Part shown: in pieces, positions 39,151 through 52,219 of the stretch
How positions within the stretch are numbered: position 1 is the first letter of the stretch
How the letters are laid out: each line of letters begins with the position of its first letter
Source: Variovorax sp. DXTD-1
GTDB taxonomy: Bacteria; Pseudomonadota; Gammaproteobacteria; Burkholderiales; Burkholderiaceae_C
Length of the DNA: 64,000 nt
Assembly (NCBI RefSeq): GCF_003984625.1
Contig: NZ_RWKH01000006.1
Span: forward strand, 62,001-126,000
Direction of reading: 5' to 3'
Notes under the pieces: generated by a model
Told to the model about the DNA's origin: nothing
The model's input: the letters and a program-made list of their open reading frames with translations, nothing else
Databases searched by the model: none
Translations under genes and position numbers: made by a program

Positions 39151-39564
39151 ATGCAAAGCGCACGCGGCACAGTCCGACTGATCGAGGTGGTGTTCCCCGA
39201 GCACACCAACCACTACGGCACGCTGTTCGGCGGACAGGCCTTGCAGCTGCTGTCGAAGGCGGCGTTTCTTTCCGGCCGCGGCTTCGTGCGTGGCGACGTG
39301 GTGATGGCGCGCTGCGGCGAGGTGCTGTTCCACGCGCCCGTGCGGCTGGGCAGCACGCTGGTGCTCGATACGCACGTGTCGCGCGTGGGCCGCAGTTCGC
39401 TCACCGTGCGCGTTGCGGGCAGCGTGCAGGACGTGGCCACCGATGCGCTCACCCGTGTGCTCGACGGCGAATTCGAAATGGTGGCGGTCGATGCCGCCGG
39501 ACGCCCGGTGCGGCTGGCGAATCCGCCGCACTTTCATGAACAGACATTCGAGGAGACGGTATGA
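39151..39564 (+). CDS. Acyl-CoA thioesterase (hotdog fold)
   Basis: A 137-residue single-hotdog acyl-CoA thioesterase of the YciA/BFIT type. FPEHTNHYGTLFGGQALQLL contains the catalytic Asn/Gly helix region, and GDVVMARCGEVLFHAPVRLG the second strand pair. It hydrolyses acyl-CoA esters, perhaps to limit propionyl- or methylcitryl-CoA build-up and free CoA. The start is one base after a TTGCGAA element, so the transcript may be leaderless or the regulator may bind over the start. It overlaps prpC by four bases. Confidence 0.85.
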   Translation: MQSARGTVRLIEVVFPEHTNHYGTLFGGQALQLLSKAAFLSGRGFVRGDVVMARCGEVLFHAPVRLGSTLVLDTHVSRVGRSSLTVRVAGSVQDVATDALTRVLDGEFEMVAVDAAGRPVRLANPPHFHEQTFEETV

Positions 39565-40725
39565 CACTGATCGCAGAAAACGCGCCCGCCGCCGGCTTCA
39601 GGCCGAAGAAATCCGTCGCGCTTTCAGGCGTGACCGCCGGCAACACCGCGCTGTGCACCGTGGGGCGCACCGGAAACGACCTGCACTACCGCGGCTACGA
39701 CATCCTCGACATTGCCGACGTCTGCGAGTTCGAGGAAATTGCGCATCTGCTGGTGCACGGCAAGCTGCCGACCGCCTCGGAGCTGCGCGCCTACAAGGGC
39801 CGGCTGAAGGCGATGCGCGGCCTGCCCGCGAGCGTGAAGGAAGCGCTGGAGCGACTGCCCGCCAGCGCGCACCCGATGGACGTGATGCGCACCGGCGTTT
39901 CCGCACTCGGCTGCGTGCTGCCGGAGAAGGACGACCATTCACTGCCCGGTGCGCGCGACATTGCCGACCGGCTGATGGCGTCGCTCGGCTCGATGCTGCT
40001 CTATTGGTATCACTGGTCCACGCAGGGCAAGCGCATCGAGGTGGAGACAGACGACGATTCGATCGGTGCGCACTTCCTGCACCTGCTGCACGGCCGCTCG
40101 CCTTCGGCAAGCTGGGAGCGCGCAATGCACACCTCGCTCAACCTGTATGCCGAGCATGAGTTCAACGCATCGACCTTCACCGCGCGCGTGGTGGCGGGCA
40201 CGGGCTCCGATGTGTATTCGGCCATTACCGGCGCCATCGGCGCGTTGCGCGGGCCCAAGCACGGCGGTGCCAACGAAGTGGCCTTCGAGATACAGAAGCG
40301 CTACGACACACCCGACGAAGCCGAGGCGGACATTCGCCGCCGCGTGGAAGCCAGGGAGGTCGTCATCGGCTTCGGCCACCCGGTCTACACCGTGTCGGAC
40401 CCGCGCAATGCGGTCATCAAGCGGGTGGCAAAACAACTCGGAAGAGGCCGGCTCCACCCGCATGTTCGACATTGCCGAGCGCATCGAAAGTGTGATGTGG
40501 AACGCCAAGAAGATGTTTCCCAACCTCGACTGGTTCAGCGCCGTGAGCTATCACATGCTCGGCGTGCCCACGGCCATGTTCACGCCGCTGTTCGTGATTG
40601 CGCGCACCAGCGGTTGGGCCGCTCACATCATCGAGCAGCGGCAGGACAACAAGATCATCCGGCCCAGCGCCAACTACACCGGCCCTGAAGACCTGGCCTT
40701 CGTGCCGATCTCGGACCGCCGCTGA
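39561..40725 (+). pseudogene. prpC: 2-methylcitrate synthase, frameshifted
   Basis: Condenses propionyl-CoA with oxaloacetate in the methylcitrate cycle. The first 293 codons are intact and highly typical ([55 protein letters not shown]). At 40437-40440 the frame is lost: CAACTCGGAAGAG should read CAACTCTCGGAAGAG for the family sequence KQLSEEAG. The remaining part ([42 protein letters not shown]) continues in another frame to 40725. Two catalytic His lie before the break, but the catalytic Asp (NLDWF) lies after it, so a real deletion would inactivate the enzyme. Restored length is 388 residues, exactly normal. Confidence 0.9.
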
Positions 40726-43613: not shown

Positions 43614-43666
43614 ATCACGGCAGGCACGGGAACAGCGGCATCTGGCCGCTTGCTCCAGCCAAGACA

Positions 43667-43705
43667 AAAAAGCCGGACGGTGCCCAGTGCATCGTCCGGC
43701 TTTTT
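43667..43705 (+). terminator. Rho-independent terminator
   Basis: AAAAAGCCGGAC (43667-43678) pairs exactly with GTCCGGCTTTTT (43694-43705), with extra TGC/GCA pairing in the loop and a T-run at the end. It closes the small secreted protein gene and isolates the four-gene operon downstream. Confidence 0.9.
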
Positions 43706-43896
43706 CGCGTTTGCCACGAAGGGCATAGGGGCGCCGACAGGCGTAGGCGAGTCTGTGCGCAGCGTGCGCCTTGACGACCTGGAACGCCCGGTTACAGGGC
43801 GCCGCGTTACCGGAAGTTTCACTCGGCCGGGGAGGGTCCGCGGAGGCGTCCAGGGAGGGTGGCCGGTGTAGACTGCCAGGTTTTTCGTTCTGGGGT

Positions 43897-44583
43897 ATGG
43901 CGCACGTTTCACAGCGCACAGTTTTCAATGGTTCGGCGCTTGTTCGCTTGCTTTCGCGACTGGCCGATTCGGACCTGCGCGAACCCCGGCAAGCCACCGC
44001 GGACCGATTGAGCCAATGGTTCGGCTGGACCGATGCCATTTCGCTGTCCGCGGCGCTGGACGGCGTTCCGGCGGCTGCTTCTTCACGGCTGCGGCCTGGC
44101 GCGAACGCCGAGGAGCGGGAGTGCGCCGGTGCGCGCACCGCGCTGGCCAAGGCCATTGCCGAAGATGCCGCCGTGGCGGCAGCGACCGAGTTCCCGCCGT
44201 TTCGCCGCCGCTACCTCGCGCTGCAGCAAGCCATGGAGGCCGGCATCGGCCCTTTGCGCGGGCGCCTTCGGGCCGCGCTGGCGGCCAGGTCGCCGGCCAT
44301 GGCCCGGCTGGCTGCCGTGGACGTGGTCATGGAACAGGTGCTGGCTGCGCGCGAGCACAGCCTCTTGGCCGGCGTGCCCGCCCTGCTCGAAAAACATTTC
44401 ACCCGCTTGAGCGGGGACGGCCTGCCGACGGCAGCCGAACCCGCCAGCGAGGCCCCGGCCGGCGAGTGGCTGCATGTGTTCCGCAAGGACATGAAGAACG
44501 TGCTGCTCGCCGAACTGGACTTCCGATTTCAACCCGTCGAAGGGCTCCTTGAAGCCTTTCGCGAGGCCACCAGAGTGCCATGA
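43897..44583 (+). CDS. DUF3348 protein, soluble partner of a Zorya-like stator operon (ZorF-like)
   Basis: A 228-residue DUF3348 protein, starting MAHVSQRTVFNGSALVRLLS. RLADSDLREPRQATADRLSQ, WFGWTDAISLSAAL and FPPFRRRYLALQQAMEAGIG are helical and charged; there is no signal peptide or membrane span, so it is probably cytosolic. The function is unproven. It is the first gene of a tightly coupled operon (overlap of four bases with the next) that encodes a MotA-like protein, an OmpA/MotB-like protein and a DUF2894 protein. From memory, DUF3348 and DUF2894 proteins are the subtype-specific components of type III Zorya anti-phage systems. The GGGG before the ATG is a weak ribosome-binding site. 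Confidence 0.75.
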   Translation: MAHVSQRTVFNGSALVRLLSRLADSDLREPRQATADRLSQWFGWTDAISLSAALDGVPAAASSRLRPGANAEERECAGARTALAKAIAEDAAVAAATEFPPFRRRYLALQQAMEAGIGPLRGRLRAALAARSPAMARLAAVDVVMEQVLAAREHSLLAGVPALLEKHFTRLSGDGLPTAAEPASEAPAGEWLHVFRKDMKNVLLAELDFRFQPVEGLLEAFREATRVP

Positions 44584-46673
44584 CTAGATTTCTTCAATAC
44601 GCTGTTTTTGCCGCCGGCCTGGCTGCGGTGTGCTGGGTGGGCGCGGGCTACCTCGGCTCCAGCCATCCGCTGGCGCTTTCGATCACGGTGCTGGTGGGTG
44701 CGTTCTACCTGATGGGGGTGGTGGAGCTGCATCGGTTCAGGCAGGCCACGTCCACCCTGGCCAGCGCCGCGGCGCGGTTGACCGAAGCCCCGGCCAACCT
44801 GGGCTCGTGGCTGGAGCAACTGCATCCGTCGCTGCGCAATGCGGTGCGCCTGCGCATCGAGGGCGAGCGCGTCGGCTTGCCCGGCCCCTCGCTCACGCCG
44901 TACCTTGCCGGATTGCTCGTGCTGCTGGGCATGCTGGGCACTTTTCTCGGCATGGTGGTGACGCTGAACGGCACCGGCATGGCGCTGGAAAGCGCGACCG
45001 ACCTGCAGGCCATCCGCGCCTCGCTCTCCGCGCCGGTGAAGGGGCTGGGGCTGGCGTTCGGCACTTCGGTGGCAGGCGTGGCTGCGTCGGCGATGCTGGG
45101 TTTGGCCTCAGCGCTGTGCCGGCGTGAGCGGCTGCAGGCCGGGCAGATGCTCGACACAAAGATTGCGACCACCTTGCGCGTGTACTCGCTGGTGCATCAG
45201 CGCGAGGCGTCGTTCCAACTGCTCGAGCAGCAGGCCCAGGCCATGCCCATGCTGGTCGACCAGCTGCAGGCCATGCTGGCCGCCATGGAGCGGCAGAGCC
45301 AGGCGTTGAACGAGCGCCTGATCACCAGCCAGGAGCATTTCCACAGCAAGGCCGAGGCGGTGTACGCCGGCCTGGCCTCGTCGGTCGACCAGTCGCTGAA
45401 GCAGAGCCTGACCGAAAGCGCCCGCATTGCCGGCGCAACGATCCAGCCGGTCGTCGAAGCCACCATGGCCGGCATCGCGCGCGAGACGGCCTCGTTGCAC
45501 GGCACGGTCGCGCACACGGTGCAGCAGCAGCTCGAAGGGCTTTCGAGCCGCTTCGAGGCCACCACGGCCACCGTGGCCGATACGTGGAAGGCCGCGCTGG
45601 CCGAACACCAGCGCAGCAATGAGGCGCTGGCGGGGGACCTGCGCGTTTCGCAGGAGCGCTTTGCCGAAACCTTCGAGCAGCGCTCGGCTTCGCTGGTGGA
45701 GACCGTGTCCGCGCGGCTCGAGAGCACCGTGGGCAGCGTATCCGACACATGGGGCAGTGCGCTCGCAGAGCACCAGCGCGCCAGCGAAAAACTGTCGGGC
45801 GACACGCAACAGTCGCTCGCGGCTGCCGCAGCCACCTTCGAGCAGCACTCGGCATCGCTGCTGCGCACGGTGGGCCAGGCGCATGCCAGCCTGCAAACCG
45901 ACATGGCATCGCGCGACGAGCAGCGGCTGTCGGCCTGGACCGCGGCGCTGTCCTCAATGGCTGCATCGCTGCAGCAGGAATGGCAGCAGGCCGGCGCGAA
46001 CACGGCCAGCCAGCAGCAACAGCTCTTCGAAACGCTGGCGCAAACTGCGCGCGACATGTCGGCGCAGGCCGAGGCGCATGCGAAGAGCACCGTGGCAGAA
46101 ATCGCCCAGCTGCTGCAAGCCGCTTCGGATGCACCGCGCGTTGCGGCCGAAGTGGTGGCCGAACTGCGGCAGAAGCTCTCTGACAGCATGGCGCGCGACA
46201 ACGCCATGCTGGAAGAGCGCAGCCGCATCATGGAAACGCTCGGCACCTTGCTCGACGCGGTGAACCATGCCTCCACCGAGCAGCGCTCGGCGGTCGATGC
46301 GCTGGTTGGCGCGTCGGCCGATGTGCTCGAACGCGTAGGCAGCCGATTCACCGAAAAGGTCGAGGCCGAAACCGGCAAGCTGGAGAGCGTTGCCGCGCAG
46401 ATCACCGGCAGCGCGGTCGAGGTGGCAAGCCTTGGCGAGGCCTTCGGGTTTGCGGTGCAGCTGTTCAGCGAATCGAACGACAAGCTGGTGGCGCATCTGC
46501 AGCGCGTCGAAGGCGCGCTGGGCAAGTCCATTGCGCGCAGCGACGAGCAGCTGGCCTACTACGTTGCGCAGGCGCGGGAGGTCATCGACCTGAGCATCAT
46601 GTCGCAGAAGCAGATCGTCGAAGACCTGCAGCAGATTGCCAGCCGGCAAGCCGCCGTGGGCAGCGAAGCATGA
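44580..46673 (+). CDS. DUF802 membrane protein with MotA/ExbB-like core and long coiled tail (ZorA-like)
   Basis: A 697-residue inner-membrane protein. Four hydrophobic helices are seen at about residues 4-22, 32-50, 106-128 (PYLAGLLVLLGMLGTFLGMV) and 150-178; the LGMLGTFLGM segment matches the pore-lining helix of MotA/ExbB/TolQ proteins. From about residue 200 to the end is an uninterrupted helical, Gln/Glu/Ala-rich tail, with an internal duplication of about 55 residues (from T331 and S386, SDTWGSALAEHQRASEKLSG-like), the DUF802 unit. ZorA of Zorya has this plan: a five-fold stator with a long cytoplasmic tail. It overlaps both neighbours by four bases. Confidence 0.82.
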   Translation: MTRFLQYAVFAAGLAAVCWVGAGYLGSSHPLALSITVLVGAFYLMGVVELHRFRQATSTLASAAARLTEAPANLGSWLEQLHPSLRNAVRLRIEGERVGLPGPSLTPYLAGLLVLLGMLGTFLGMVVTLNGTGMALESATDLQAIRASLSAPVKGLGLAFGTSVAGVAASAMLGLASALCRRERLQAGQMLDTKIATTLRVYSLVHQREASFQLLEQQAQAMPMLVDQLQAMLAAMERQSQALNERLITSQEHFHSKAEAVYAGLASSVDQSLKQSLTESARIAGATIQPVVEATMAGIARETASLHGTVAHTVQQQLEGLSSRFEATTATVADTWKAALAEHQRSNEALAGDLRVSQERFAETFEQRSASLVETVSARLESTVGSVSDTWGSALAEHQRASEKLSGDTQQSLAAAAATFEQHSASLLRTVGQAHASLQTDMASRDEQRLSAWTAALSSMAASLQQEWQQAGANTASQQQQLFETLAQTARDMSAQAEAHAKSTVAEIAQLLQAASDAPRVAAEVVAELRQKLSDSMARDNAMLEERSRIMETLGTLLDAVNHASTEQRSAVDALVGASADVLERVGSRFTEKVEAETGKLESVAAQITGSAVEVASLGEAFGFAVQLFSESNDKLVAHLQRVEGALGKSIARSDEQLAYYVAQAREVIDLSIMSQKQIVEDLQQIASRQAAVGSEA

Positions 46674-47326
46674 TGGGTGAAGAAGCCGACGGCGGACTGG
46701 AACCGACCGTTCCGGTATGGGCGGTGTTCGGCGACCTGATGGCGGGCCTGGTCGGGGCCTTTGTGCTGATTCTCGTGGGTGCGCTCGGCATGCAGCTGGA
46801 CCTTGCGGCCAAGCTCGAAGCCGAAGTGCAGCAGCGGCAGGCCGAAACGCAGCGCCGCGAAGCGCTCGAACAGGCCCTCGCCGGGCCGCTCGCGGCGGGC
46901 CGCGTCACGCTGAACAACGGGCGCATCGGCATCAGCGGCAGCGTGCTGTTTGCATTCAACTCCGCCGACCTGCAGCCTGAAGGCCGCCAGCTGCTCAAGA
47001 GCCTGGCCGCGCCGGTGGCGGCCTACCTCAAGGCGCGCGACGAGGTGCTGATGGTGAGCGGCTTCACCGACGACCGGCAGATGCGGCAGTCGAAAGACGG
47101 CAACCGCCCGTTCGCAGACAACTGGGAGCTGTCGGCCCAGCGCGCGCTCACGGTCACGCGCGCGCTCATCGAAGAGGGCATTCCCTCGTCGTCCGTGTTT
47201 GCCGCGGCATTCGGCTCCGAGCAGGCGGTCGCGTCCAATGCCGATGCCGAAGGCCGCTCGAAGAACCGGCGTGTGGAAATGGCGCCCACGCCAAGGCAAT
47301 CCAACGCCACCACGAAGCGGCCGTGA
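46670..47326 (+). CDS. OmpA/MotB-like stator partner (ZorB-like)
   Basis: A 218-residue protein with one N-terminal membrane helix (VPVWAVFGDLMAGLVGAFVL) followed by a short coiled linker and a peptidoglycan-binding OmpA domain (about residues 85-215: SGSVLFAFNSADLQPEGRQL, ELSAQRALTVTRALIEEGIP, NRRVEMAPT). The Asp in FGDLM (residue 22) occupies the place of the ion-carrying Asp of MotB, ExbD and ZorB. Together with the preceding MotA-like protein it should form an ion-driven membrane motor anchored to the cell wall. It overlaps both flanking genes by four bases. Confidence 0.85.
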   Translation: MMGEEADGGLEPTVPVWAVFGDLMAGLVGAFVLILVGALGMQLDLAAKLEAEVQQRQAETQRREALEQALAGPLAAGRVTLNNGRIGISGSVLFAFNSADLQPEGRQLLKSLAAPVAAYLKARDEVLMVSGFTDDRQMRQSKDGNRPFADNWELSAQRALTVTRALIEEGIPSSSVFAAAFGSEQAVASNADAEGRSKNRRVEMAPTPRQSNATTKRP

Positions 47327-47976
47327 GCGACCACGTCGATCCCATCGAGATGATCGGCGCCTGGCGGGCGCAGGGGCAGCATCGCGCGGACCCGGTGCGC
47401 TTTCATCTCATGGAGGCGTTCGCCAGGCGTACGGCTGCGCATCAGGGGGAGGCGAGGCGCATCCTCGATGAGAAGCTCGCCGGCCTGGCTGCGGCCTACG
47501 GCAGGAATCTTGAAAAGGCCCAGGGTGCGGACAGTGCCGCGAAACGACTGCCTGCAGGCGCACCCGCTCGCGGCGCACTCGCGGAACTGGTCGACCATAT
47601 CGCGCGGCATGCACCGGCCATCGGCGGCGGCACCGCGGTGGCAGAAGACACGCTGCACGGCCTTGCGCCGGCGCCCGCCGAGCTGAAGACCCTCAAGTTC
47701 TTCAGGAGCACCTGGTCGCGGCTCAGCGCCGAGCGGCGGCTGACCCAATCGCTCGCCAAGGTGCCCGAGAACGCCGGTCCGCTCAACTCGCACCACCTGG
47801 TGCACAGGTCGCTGCTGTTGATGCGCGATTTGTCGCCGGAGTACCTCAACCGCTTCATGACCTACGTCGACACCCTGTTGTGGGTCGATCAGTTGAACGG
47901 TGCCGGCGCCCCGGCGCCCGCGAGTGCGCCGCGCGCCGAGACCTCGAAGAAGACCGCGCGCGGCAAATCCGCCTGA
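47323..47976 (+). CDS. DUF2894 protein, soluble partner of the stator operon (ZorG-like)
   Basis: A 217-residue DUF2894 protein starting (GTG) MSDHVDPIEMIGAWRAQGQH. It is helical and charged; RRILDEKLAGLAAAYGRNLE and LKFFRSTWSRLSAERRLTQS are family-like segments, and LNSHHLVHRSLLLMRDLSPE, YLNRFMTYVDTLLWVDQL form the conserved C-terminal region. The last 30 residues are low-complexity and basic (KKTARGKSA), possibly nucleic-acid binding. No membrane span. Activity unknown. It is the last gene of the coupled operon and converges on cbpM. Confidence 0.75.
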   Translation: MSDHVDPIEMIGAWRAQGQHRADPVRFHLMEAFARRTAAHQGEARRILDEKLAGLAAAYGRNLEKAQGADSAAKRLPAGAPARGALAELVDHIARHAPAIGGGTAVAEDTLHGLAPAPAELKTLKFFRSTWSRLSAERRLTQSLAKVPENAGPLNSHHLVHRSLLLMRDLSPEYLNRFMTYVDTLLWVDQLNGAGAPAPASAPRAETSKKTARGKSA

Positions 47977-51312: not shown

Positions 51313-51848
51313 TCAGGCCGGAAACCGGGCCTCATAGGCTTTTTCGAGTTCCGCGTGGTTGCTCCAGAACCCCCGGGGGGTGCGCTCGTGCAGCACGTCG
51401 TCGAGCACGTCCAGGTGCGCGTGCCAGCCGCTCGAAACGCTGAGTGTTTCCTTGCGGTCGGGCAGGCGGCGGTGGGTGAGCACCAGGTGCGTCGAATCGC
51501 CCCGGGGCGTGACTCGAAGCTCACCTCGGATGCGGTGGCGCTTTCGCTGCCCCAGCTGATGGTCAGGCGTTTCAGTGGTTCGATCTCGACCAACCGCGAT
51601 TTCTGGGAGATGGGGCTGCGGCAGTCGGCGAAGCGATCGGGCGCCACTTCGCCGGAAAGGCTGGTGTGGTCGAAGCGCAGTTCGAACACGCCGCCGCTTT
51701 TCTCGGCCATGGTGCCGCCGGCCAGCCACCTCGCGCGCTTGTCGGGGTCGATGAAATAGGCCCACACGCGCTCCACCGGCGCGGGCAGGGTGCGCTCCAT
51801 GCGCACGGTGCCGGGTTCGATCAGGGTTCCGAGGCTGCTTGTCATCAT
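51313..51848 (-). pseudogene. SRPBCC (AHSA1-like) protein, frameshifted
   Basis: An Aha1/START-fold (Bet v1-like) protein of the kind usually encoded with an ArsR regulator. The frame begins MMTSSLGTLIEPGTVRMERT (AAGGAG upstream) and runs through PAPVERVWAYFIDPDKRARW to SATASEVSFE. It then breaks near 51505-51518: GAGTCACGCCCC should carry one more base to give FE(V/L)TPRGDSTHLVLTHRRL, which continues in another frame to DVLHERTPRGFWSNHAELEK and stop. Restored length is 178 residues, normal. A single-base deletion, real or technical, explains it. It follows the ArsR gene by 29 bases. Confidence 0.82.
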
Positions 51849-51877
51849 CGTTTGCTCCTTGAAGAAGGGAAAGAAGT

Positions 51878-52219
51878 TCACTTGCGGGATGCGTTGTCGC
51901 GCCGCAGCTCCTGCTCCAGCGCGTCCAGATGGCTGTTCCAGAAGCCTTCGTAGTACCGCAGCCATGCGTTGGCCGAGGCGAGCGCCGCCGGCTCCAGCCG
52001 GCAGACGTGCGCGCGGCCCTGCACCGTGCGGGAGACCAGGCCGGCGCGCTCCAGCGCCTTGACGTGCTTGGAGGCGCCCGCAAAGGACATTCGAAACGGC
52101 GCCCCGAGTTCGCCCACGCTGCACTCGCCCTGCGCCAGCAGCTGCAGCATCGTGCGCCGCGTGCTGTCGGCCAGGGCATGGAACACGGCGTCGAGCCGTT
52201 CGTCGTCTAGTTCAACCAT
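51878..52219 (-). CDS. ArsR-family regulator
   Basis: A 113-residue winged-HTH repressor, starting MVELDDERLDAVFHALADST. RRTMLQLLAQGECSVGELGA and MSFAGASKHVKALERAGLVS are the HTH; there is no metal-binding Cys motif, so it belongs to the SRPBCC-associated ArsR group rather than metal sensors. It heads an operon with the SRPBCC gene. Two TTCAAC-N6-GTTGAA sites lie at and upstream of its start, which strongly suggests autorepression. Confidence 0.88.
   Translation of the reverse strand: MVELDDERLDAVFHALADSTRRTMLQLLAQGECSVGELGAPFRMSFAGASKHVKALERAGLVSRTVQGRAHVCRLEPAALASANAWLRYYEGFWNSHLDALEQELRRDNASRK

Follow-up and report, generated by a model that had tools for sequence, protein, structure and literature searches.

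A type III Zorya operon in Variovorax sp. DXTD-1: a conserved single-copy unit in differing genomic neighbourhoods

A 64,000-nucleotide stretch of the Variovorax sp. DXTD-1 genome (contig NZ_RWKH01000006.1, positions 62,001 to 126,000 of the forward strand; the whole of it is called the window below) carries four genes that make up, by every sequence test run, a genuine type III Zorya operon. A first-pass annotation had placed four genes with ATGA-like overlaps at 43897..47976 and matched them to this type or else to a related ion-driven motor. The coordinates proved exact, four-base overlaps were read at all three gene junctions (ATGA, ATGA, and GTGA), and a PADLOC model search, the check that the annotation itself had proposed, matched 4/4 products to type III Zorya models (Table 1). 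The motor pair zorA-zorB is flanked by the DUF3348 and DUF2894 genes, the gene plan defining type III in Payne 2021 (PMC8565338), where 6,401 gene pairs accompanied by the two partners served as the basis of the type. The kind of system is already known, type III having been described and tested in that paper: an operon from Stenotrophomonas nitritireducens reduced the plaquing of at least one phage in E. coli. The annotation's equation of ZorF with DUF3348 and ZorG with DUF2894 is also that of PMC8565338 and PMC11890865. PADLOC-DB 2.0.0 (PDLC00652-00658) has the labels reversed relative to both papers, with ZorF3 for DUF2894 and ZorG3 for DUF3348, so gene names in PADLOC output will clash with the literature.

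Table 1. Coordinates of the operon and its features in the window
Feature	Position	Strand	Remarks
Promoter-like element	43867..43886	+	TAGACT (43869-43874), six bases, T-tract (43881-43885); operon start codon at 43897; found by conservation
DUF3348 gene (ZorF of papers; PADLOC label ZorG3)	43897..44583	+	228 aa; PADLOC PDLC00658 8.2e-89; Pfam PF11828 2.3e-75
ZorA (MotA/ExbB/TolQ-like motor subunit, long cytoplasmic tail)	44580..46673	+	697 aa; PADLOC ZorA3 PDLC00650 E=0, 1210.5 bits
ZorA third and fourth membrane helices (pore region, residues about 104-181)	44889..45122	+	Local ZorA1/ZorA2 model matches; many invariant residues
ZorA shaft (residues about 215-510), hendecad coiled coil	45222..46109	+	Period 3.67; weakly conserved middle; site of length change
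DUF802 copy 1, ZorA tail	45540..45698	+	PF05650 76.1 bits
DUF802 copy 2, ZorA tail, 55 residues after copy 1	45705..45863	+	PF05650 67.8 bits
ZorA tip (residues about 511-690), proposed partner docking site	46110..46649	+	Conserved; putative docking
ZorB (MotB-like, one membrane helix, OmpA-type domain)	46670..47326	+	218 aa; PADLOC ZorB3 4e-111; Pfam OmpA 8.1e-20
Codon of ZorB Asp22, predicted ion-carrying residue	46733..46735	+	D in 110/110 relatives
OmpA/peptidoglycan-binding domain of ZorB (residues 93-200)	46946..47269	+	PF00691 8.1e-20
DUF2894 gene (ZorG of papers; PADLOC label ZorF3)	47323..47976	+	217 aa, GTG start; PADLOC PDLC00652 1.5e-79; Pfam PF11445 4.4e-62
Basic C-terminal tail of DUF2894 protein (last 15 residues)	47929..47973	+	Net charge; putative nucleic-acid contact

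The four-gene order was complete in 40/40 loci of the window's genus (Variovorax-like; these 40 of 98 genus loci were hand-picked mainly for long contigs and are not a random sample), in 10/10 loci from the family, and in 20/20 from a second genus of the same class. Among named loci it was intact in 75/80; the remaining five matches, which are without DUF3348 and the ZorA start, lie less than 2.5 kb from the first base of their records and are cut by the record ends. Because all four genes recur in the same order across the genus, the family, and the named loci, the gene set is not due to chance. The closest DUF3348 relative among the matches listed came from Variovorax paradoxus (96% identity), which places the window in Variovorax or very close to that genus.

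ZorA combines a conserved pore with an extensible and variable shaft and a tip whose conservation nearly equals that of the pore. Hydropathy analysis revealed four hydrophobic stretches (residues about 4–27, 27–53, 98–136, and 155–181) with the pore segment LVLLGMLGTFLGM in the third, as expected from the four membrane helices and the MotA/ExbB-like pore segment noticed in the first-pass annotation, and many pore residues were identical in 105/105 relatives. The roughly 490-residue helical tail described there was also recovered: about 490 residues follow the last membrane helix, and their hydrophobic period of 3.67 residues is that of a hendecad coiled coil, with a peak reached by 0/500 shuffles and a mean period of 3.66 over the 75 named loci and the window. 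DUF802, which the annotation had named in the second gene, was found by Pfam in two copies within this tail, sharing 56% identity over 50 amino acids at an offset of 55. At the sequence level, ZorA matched no solved chain at E ≤ 0.01.

Conservation along ZorA was evaluated in 30-residue blocks against 74 relatives (the 75 named loci less L051), in an alignment where repeated modules may be placed arbitrarily. Identity to the window was 83–91% in the pore, 71–87% at residues 511–690, and 47–68% at residues 331–510, with the lowest shaft values at residues 331–360 (47% overall and 36% for Burkholderia-type loci); nearly all inserted residues fell at window residue 459. Among named loci, ZorA length ran from 601 to 1015 residues, apart from the 473-residue copy of L051, which is probably broken. 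A repeat module with 90–100% identity over 50 residues was present in 9/12 ZorA proteins examined, measuring 80 residues in L103, L104, and L111, 87 in L049, L083, L088, L090, and L095, and 116 in L047; the ZorA proteins of the window, L080, and L056 contained no such high-identity repeat. An older 55-residue repeat with 30–56% identity was seen in 11/12. The 80-residue module was identical over 50 residues in L103, L104, and L111, and ZorA lengths in the Burkholderia loci among L103-L121 were 855, 935, and 1015 residues, in steps of exactly 80. These length steps and identical modules suggest that the ZorA tail may change in length between close relatives. Because the tip is conserved and the shaft is variable, the tip would be the natural docking place for both partner proteins.

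ZorB contains a single hydrophobic stretch (residues 13–50) enclosing Asp22, in agreement with the one membrane helix and the aspartate at residue 22 reported in the annotation; Trp17, like Asp22, was identical in 110/110 relatives. The peptidoglycan-binding OmpA domain that the annotation had recognised is likewise predicted here, by its Pfam model match. ZorB also matched NCBIfam NF006547.1 above the cut-off. The flagellar models fell short: the MotD model scored 88.4 of 283 bits, and no MotB model reached its cut-off among the 25/37 NCBIfam families listed.

The two partner proteins were both predicted to be all-helical, DUF3348 with a predicted local distance difference test score (pLDDT) of 82 and a predicted template modelling score (pTM) of 0.79, and DUF2894 with a pLDDT of 73 and a pTM of 0.40. 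The earlier observation that the soluble partners have no recognisable nuclease held, in that Pfam returned DUF3348 and DUF2894 alone and no nuclease family. Comparison of the predicted folds with solved structures gave no confident match for either protein, which leaves room for an activity of unrecognised kind. The last 15 residues of the DUF2894 protein are basic, with a net charge (K+R less D+E) of at least +4 in 67/75 named relatives and at least +3 in 74/75, and this tail may contact nucleic acid.

The sequence at 43866-43886, just before the operon, reads GTGTAGACTGCCAGGTTTTTC and includes the promoter-like element, which was searched as 43867-43886. It had one match in the window, and the core pattern recurred just once more in the genome, with three mismatches. 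The corresponding sequence is mostly GTGTAAACTGC...TTTTT in Burkholderia-type loci and mostly GTGTAAAAT...TTTT in the second genus. The pattern TAnAnT-N6-TTTT, written after many of the same loci had been seen, occurred upstream of the operon in 40/41 genus loci and 42/50 named Variovorax loci (two overlapping sets), 19/21 Burkholderia-type loci, 19/20 second-genus loci, 5/10 other family loci, and 1/4 other named loci; in the background it occurred in 1/1066 windows, a single hit that possibly comes from the operon itself. With a tract of more than four bases, an N7 spacing also fits many loci. A longer fuzzy motif allowing up to three substitutions was found in 71/75 named, 7/10 family, and 17/20 second-genus loci. 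TAGACT would be a −10 element, with a transcription start in the T-tract. T-tract starts permit slippage dependent on uridine triphosphate (UTP) in E. coli pyrimidine operons (PMC6245113), and by analogy similar slippage may occur at the start of this operon. A hairpin followed by a T-run lies at 43658-43714, between the DUF4148 gene and the operon, and looks like the terminator of the preceding gene.

Between loci of differing neighbourhoods, DNA similarity extended from about 45 bases before DUF3348 to the DUF2894 stop. The conserved unit is the promoter-like element and the four genes, through the last stop codon. No repeat pair joining its two ends was present among the repeats listed (20/42 direct families and 25/54 inverted pairs), there was no tRNA gene near the operon within 38–54 kb, and PADLOC, Pfam, and NCBIfam searches identified no recombinase or known toxin family among the unit's four genes.

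DUF3348 was detected in 98/101 genomes of the window's genus (85/87 among good genomes), and one of the three genomes without it is 62% complete. Two complete copies were found in 0/98 genus genomes; three genomes with two DUF3348 matches hold pieces of one gene, either on two contigs (G186, G214) or on adjoining stretches of one contig (G227). The type I restriction domain HSDR_N, used as a control, was present in 47/101 of the same genomes, compared with 98/101 for DUF3348 (Fisher 5.5e-17, a value that treats related genomes as independent), and 14/47 HSDR_N-bearing genomes had two or more matches, a count made by eye that includes partial matches. The second genus showed DUF3348 in 87/91 genomes. 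Distribution was patchy in the family sample: DUF3348 occurred in 42/150 genomes, DUF2894 in 44/150 (43 over the cut-off), and DUF802 in 29/150. All 42 DUF3348 genomes of the family also hold DUF2894; in 40 of them both genes lie less than 5 kb from each other on one contig, with starts 2.9–4.7 kb apart, and in two they lie on different contigs. In one further family genome (65% complete), DUF2894 scored above the cut-off and no DUF3348 was detected. The phylum sample gave 13/299, with 12 over the cut-off. The DUF2894 model also scored above the cut-off in the Corynebacterium glutamicum control genome, far outside the range seen for the operon.

To compare genomic positions, 6-kb flanks were examined in 41 loci (the 40 genus loci and the window), and these fell into 21 DNA neighbourhoods when a quarter of the flank had to be shared or 23 when half had to be shared. 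Protein-level comparison by tblastx gave 14 clusters (quarter of the flank) or 23, one of the 14 being joined partly by matches between opposite flanks. Because neighbourhoods were joined by single linkage, pairs were also counted: 78/820 operon locus pairs shared a quarter of the flank, versus 523/820 pairs for cbpA. This sole neighbourhood control gene was present in 97/101 genus genomes and occupied one neighbourhood in 41/41 examined, a set that includes genome G218 instead of the window's genome.

In the window, reading of the translations places the operon between what we take to be prpC-prpD-prpB-DUF4148 and cbpM-cbpA, and Pfam matches in the neighbouring proteins include citrate synthase and PrpD domains. 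This prp-cbp place is common to 10/40 loci by the stricter count, and one further locus has the cbp side inverted. DUF3348 lay on the same contig as cbpA at less than 8 kb in 19/94 genomes holding both genes, with genes on separate contigs counted as unlinked. An operon-free version of the place was found in several genomes (e.g., L129). At the prp-cbp place of L022 and L030, extra genes stand between the DUF4148 gene and the operon, three of them encoding small proteins and one a product of some 1000 residues, indicating that the place may take up genes repeatedly.

Molecular phylogenetic analysis compared the operon with a core tree (cbpA, pssA, and PGAM; pssA was available in 39/41 genomes), in which 24/41 genomes formed a group with a support of 98 in the Shimodaira–Hasegawa-like approximate likelihood ratio test (SH-aLRT). 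In the approximately unbiased (AU) test, this 24-genome core group was rejected by the operon data (p 0.0015), and a 23-genome operon group was in turn rejected on the core genes (p 0.00012). Close relatives agreed in both trees, and the distances were correlated (Mantel r 0.78, p 0.001). Considering this conflict together with the agreement among close relatives, the operon seems to be inherited vertically for a while and exchanged or relocated over longer times. The tree evidence is good, not final, because the tested groups were chosen after the trees had been seen and the operon tree has long branches.

Compared with the type III systems of Payne 2021 (PMC8565338), the operon has the same four genes and domains, with the motor pair between the two DUF genes; it differs in its Variovorax-like host and in the position of the window copy between prp metabolic and cbpM/cbpA chaperone genes. 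Four features go beyond what we found described there: a roving distribution with one copy per genome, the promoter-like element, the modular shaft, and the conservation of the tip. Zorya types I and II (PMC11890865; structures 8VVN and 8VVI) likewise have a long-tailed MotA-like ZorA and a MotB-like ZorB with an ion-carrying aspartate and a peptidoglycan-binding domain, and ZorB weakly matched the 8VVN ZorB chain (E 0.0032). However, the matches of ZorA to the ZorA1/ZorA2 models were confined to the pore and a portion of the tail, and none of the four products hit a PADLOC model for ZorC, the helicase ZorD, or the nickase ZorE (E ≤ 0.001), whose place is taken by two DUF proteins. The flagellar stators MotAB and PomAB share the pore segment, the single-helix B subunit with its aspartate, and the OmpA-type domain, and the best solved relative of ZorB by sequence was the putative MotB 3khn (2.2e-12), whereas MotA lacks the ZorA tail shaft and the operon partners are non-flagellar.

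We consider it probable (about 0.72) that this system works as a ZorAB ion motor that senses phage-caused cell-wall damage and turns its shaft, the tip docking the DUF3348 and DUF2894 proteins for an antiviral step. By prediction, ZorA and ZorB make up an ion-powered inner-membrane motor, which phage-caused damage to the cell wall or envelope would likely trigger. The triggered motor would turn the long ZorA shaft, whose conserved tip may dock or activate the two partners, and these, neither of which matches a known nuclease, would probably carry out the antiviral step. Family identity, Asp22, the OmpA domain by model match, the pore, shaft, and tip anatomy, and the conserved unit in different neighbourhoods come from this analysis; the 5:2 assembly and the needs for ion flow, peptidoglycan binding, and the ZorA tail are borrowed from types I and II, for both of which protection was reported to be ion-dependent (PMC11890865). 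Among the papers listed by the literature searches, none dealt with the mechanism of type III.

Several observations weigh against this proposal. Both NCBIfam ZorA models were matched far below their cut-offs (25.5 of 100 bits and 22.3 of 190 bits), the DUF2894 structure model has low overall confidence (pTM 0.40), and in the family sample just 29 of 42 genomes with DUF3348 have DUF802, suggesting that the ZorA tail diverges. Presence in nearly every genome of two genera (98/101 and 87/91) is unusual for a defence system, as are the metabolic and chaperone genes flanking the window copy. Among 138 neighbour proteins from 23 loci, there were four matches to three PADLOC families at E ≤ 1e-10. 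The operon thus shows neither the defence-gene neighbourhood nor the patchiness within a genus of a typical defence-island gene; its patchiness appears at the family level. In Burkholderia cenocepacia, knock-down of predicted defence systems revealed none that altered fitness during infection by phage Bcep176.

The two DUF proteins might instead merely gate ZorAB, so that ion flow depolarises the infected cell and thereby protects, an explanation to which we grant a real but minor chance. Payne 2021 (PMC8565338) suggested that ZorF and ZorG regulate ZorAB, and neither partner has a nuclease family or a convincing structural match, as this explanation would have it. However, types I and II have soluble DNA-attacking effectors (PMC11890865), and it is difficult to see why a mere channel would have a long shaft and a conserved tip. 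We regard as unlikely the notion that DUF3348 and DUF2894 are adaptors through which a cellular nuclease encoded elsewhere is recruited to the tip of the shaft; it is in keeping with two partners predicted to be helical and with a conserved unit that holds no further gene, but the protection of E. coli by a type III operon (PMC8565338) means that the nuclease would have to be common to distant hosts, and no direct evidence points to one.

It is decidedly unlikely that the operon is a housekeeping motor maintaining the cell envelope, with the phage protection in E. coli being a by-product of plasmid-borne expression. The near-universal presence in two genera, the few defence neighbours, the strongly conserved promoter-like element, and a knock-down that was neutral for one phage in B. 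cenocepacia all suit such a role, but a housekeeping gene should stay put as cbpA does, in one neighbourhood versus the operon's 21–23, and should follow the core tree, which the operon does not; moreover, just 42/150 family genomes have the operon. A selfish cassette that persists by excluding a second copy or punishing loss, with defence as a by-product, would account for many sites with single copies (no two complete copies in 98 genomes versus 14/47 HSDR_N genomes with at least two matches), but is highly improbable given four genes without recombinase or known toxin family, no end-joining repeat pair among the repeats listed, no tRNA gene within 38–54 kb, and the existence of operon-free genomes (3/101, one of them 62% complete).

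Returning to the proposed ZorAB motor with its docked partners, a more elaborate joint reading can be drawn up, which we consider decidedly unlikely. The operon would be a core but roving one-copy immune cassette, swapped between lineages and re-inserted elsewhere, in which a nuclease-free, adjustable shaft and its tip would present two helical proteins, one of them basic-tailed, that seize or block phage DNA mechanically; the T-tract promoter would be switched on by falling UTP during infection.

Types I and II have described DNA-attacking effectors, and for type III none is recognisable here. The operon offers a compact system in an environmental genus with testable anatomy: a measurable shaft, a conserved tip at which partner binding may be sought, the basic tail of DUF2894, and a promoter-like start. 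If defence is its role, a system that almost all species of a genus possess, but at changing sites, would also be an odd case for ideas on the spread of bacterial immunity.

Two neighbouring genes in the window appear interrupted. The prpC gene (2-methylcitrate synthase by reading) at 39561-40725 is split over two frames, where L030 has one frame of 388 residues, and the split is possibly an assembly error. At 51313-52124, presumably an AHSA1/SRPBCC-like gene beside an ArsR-like regulator, the gene seems split between frames, where L030 has a 190-residue frame; this is a possible second sign of base errors in the assembly. The Zorya frames themselves are open.

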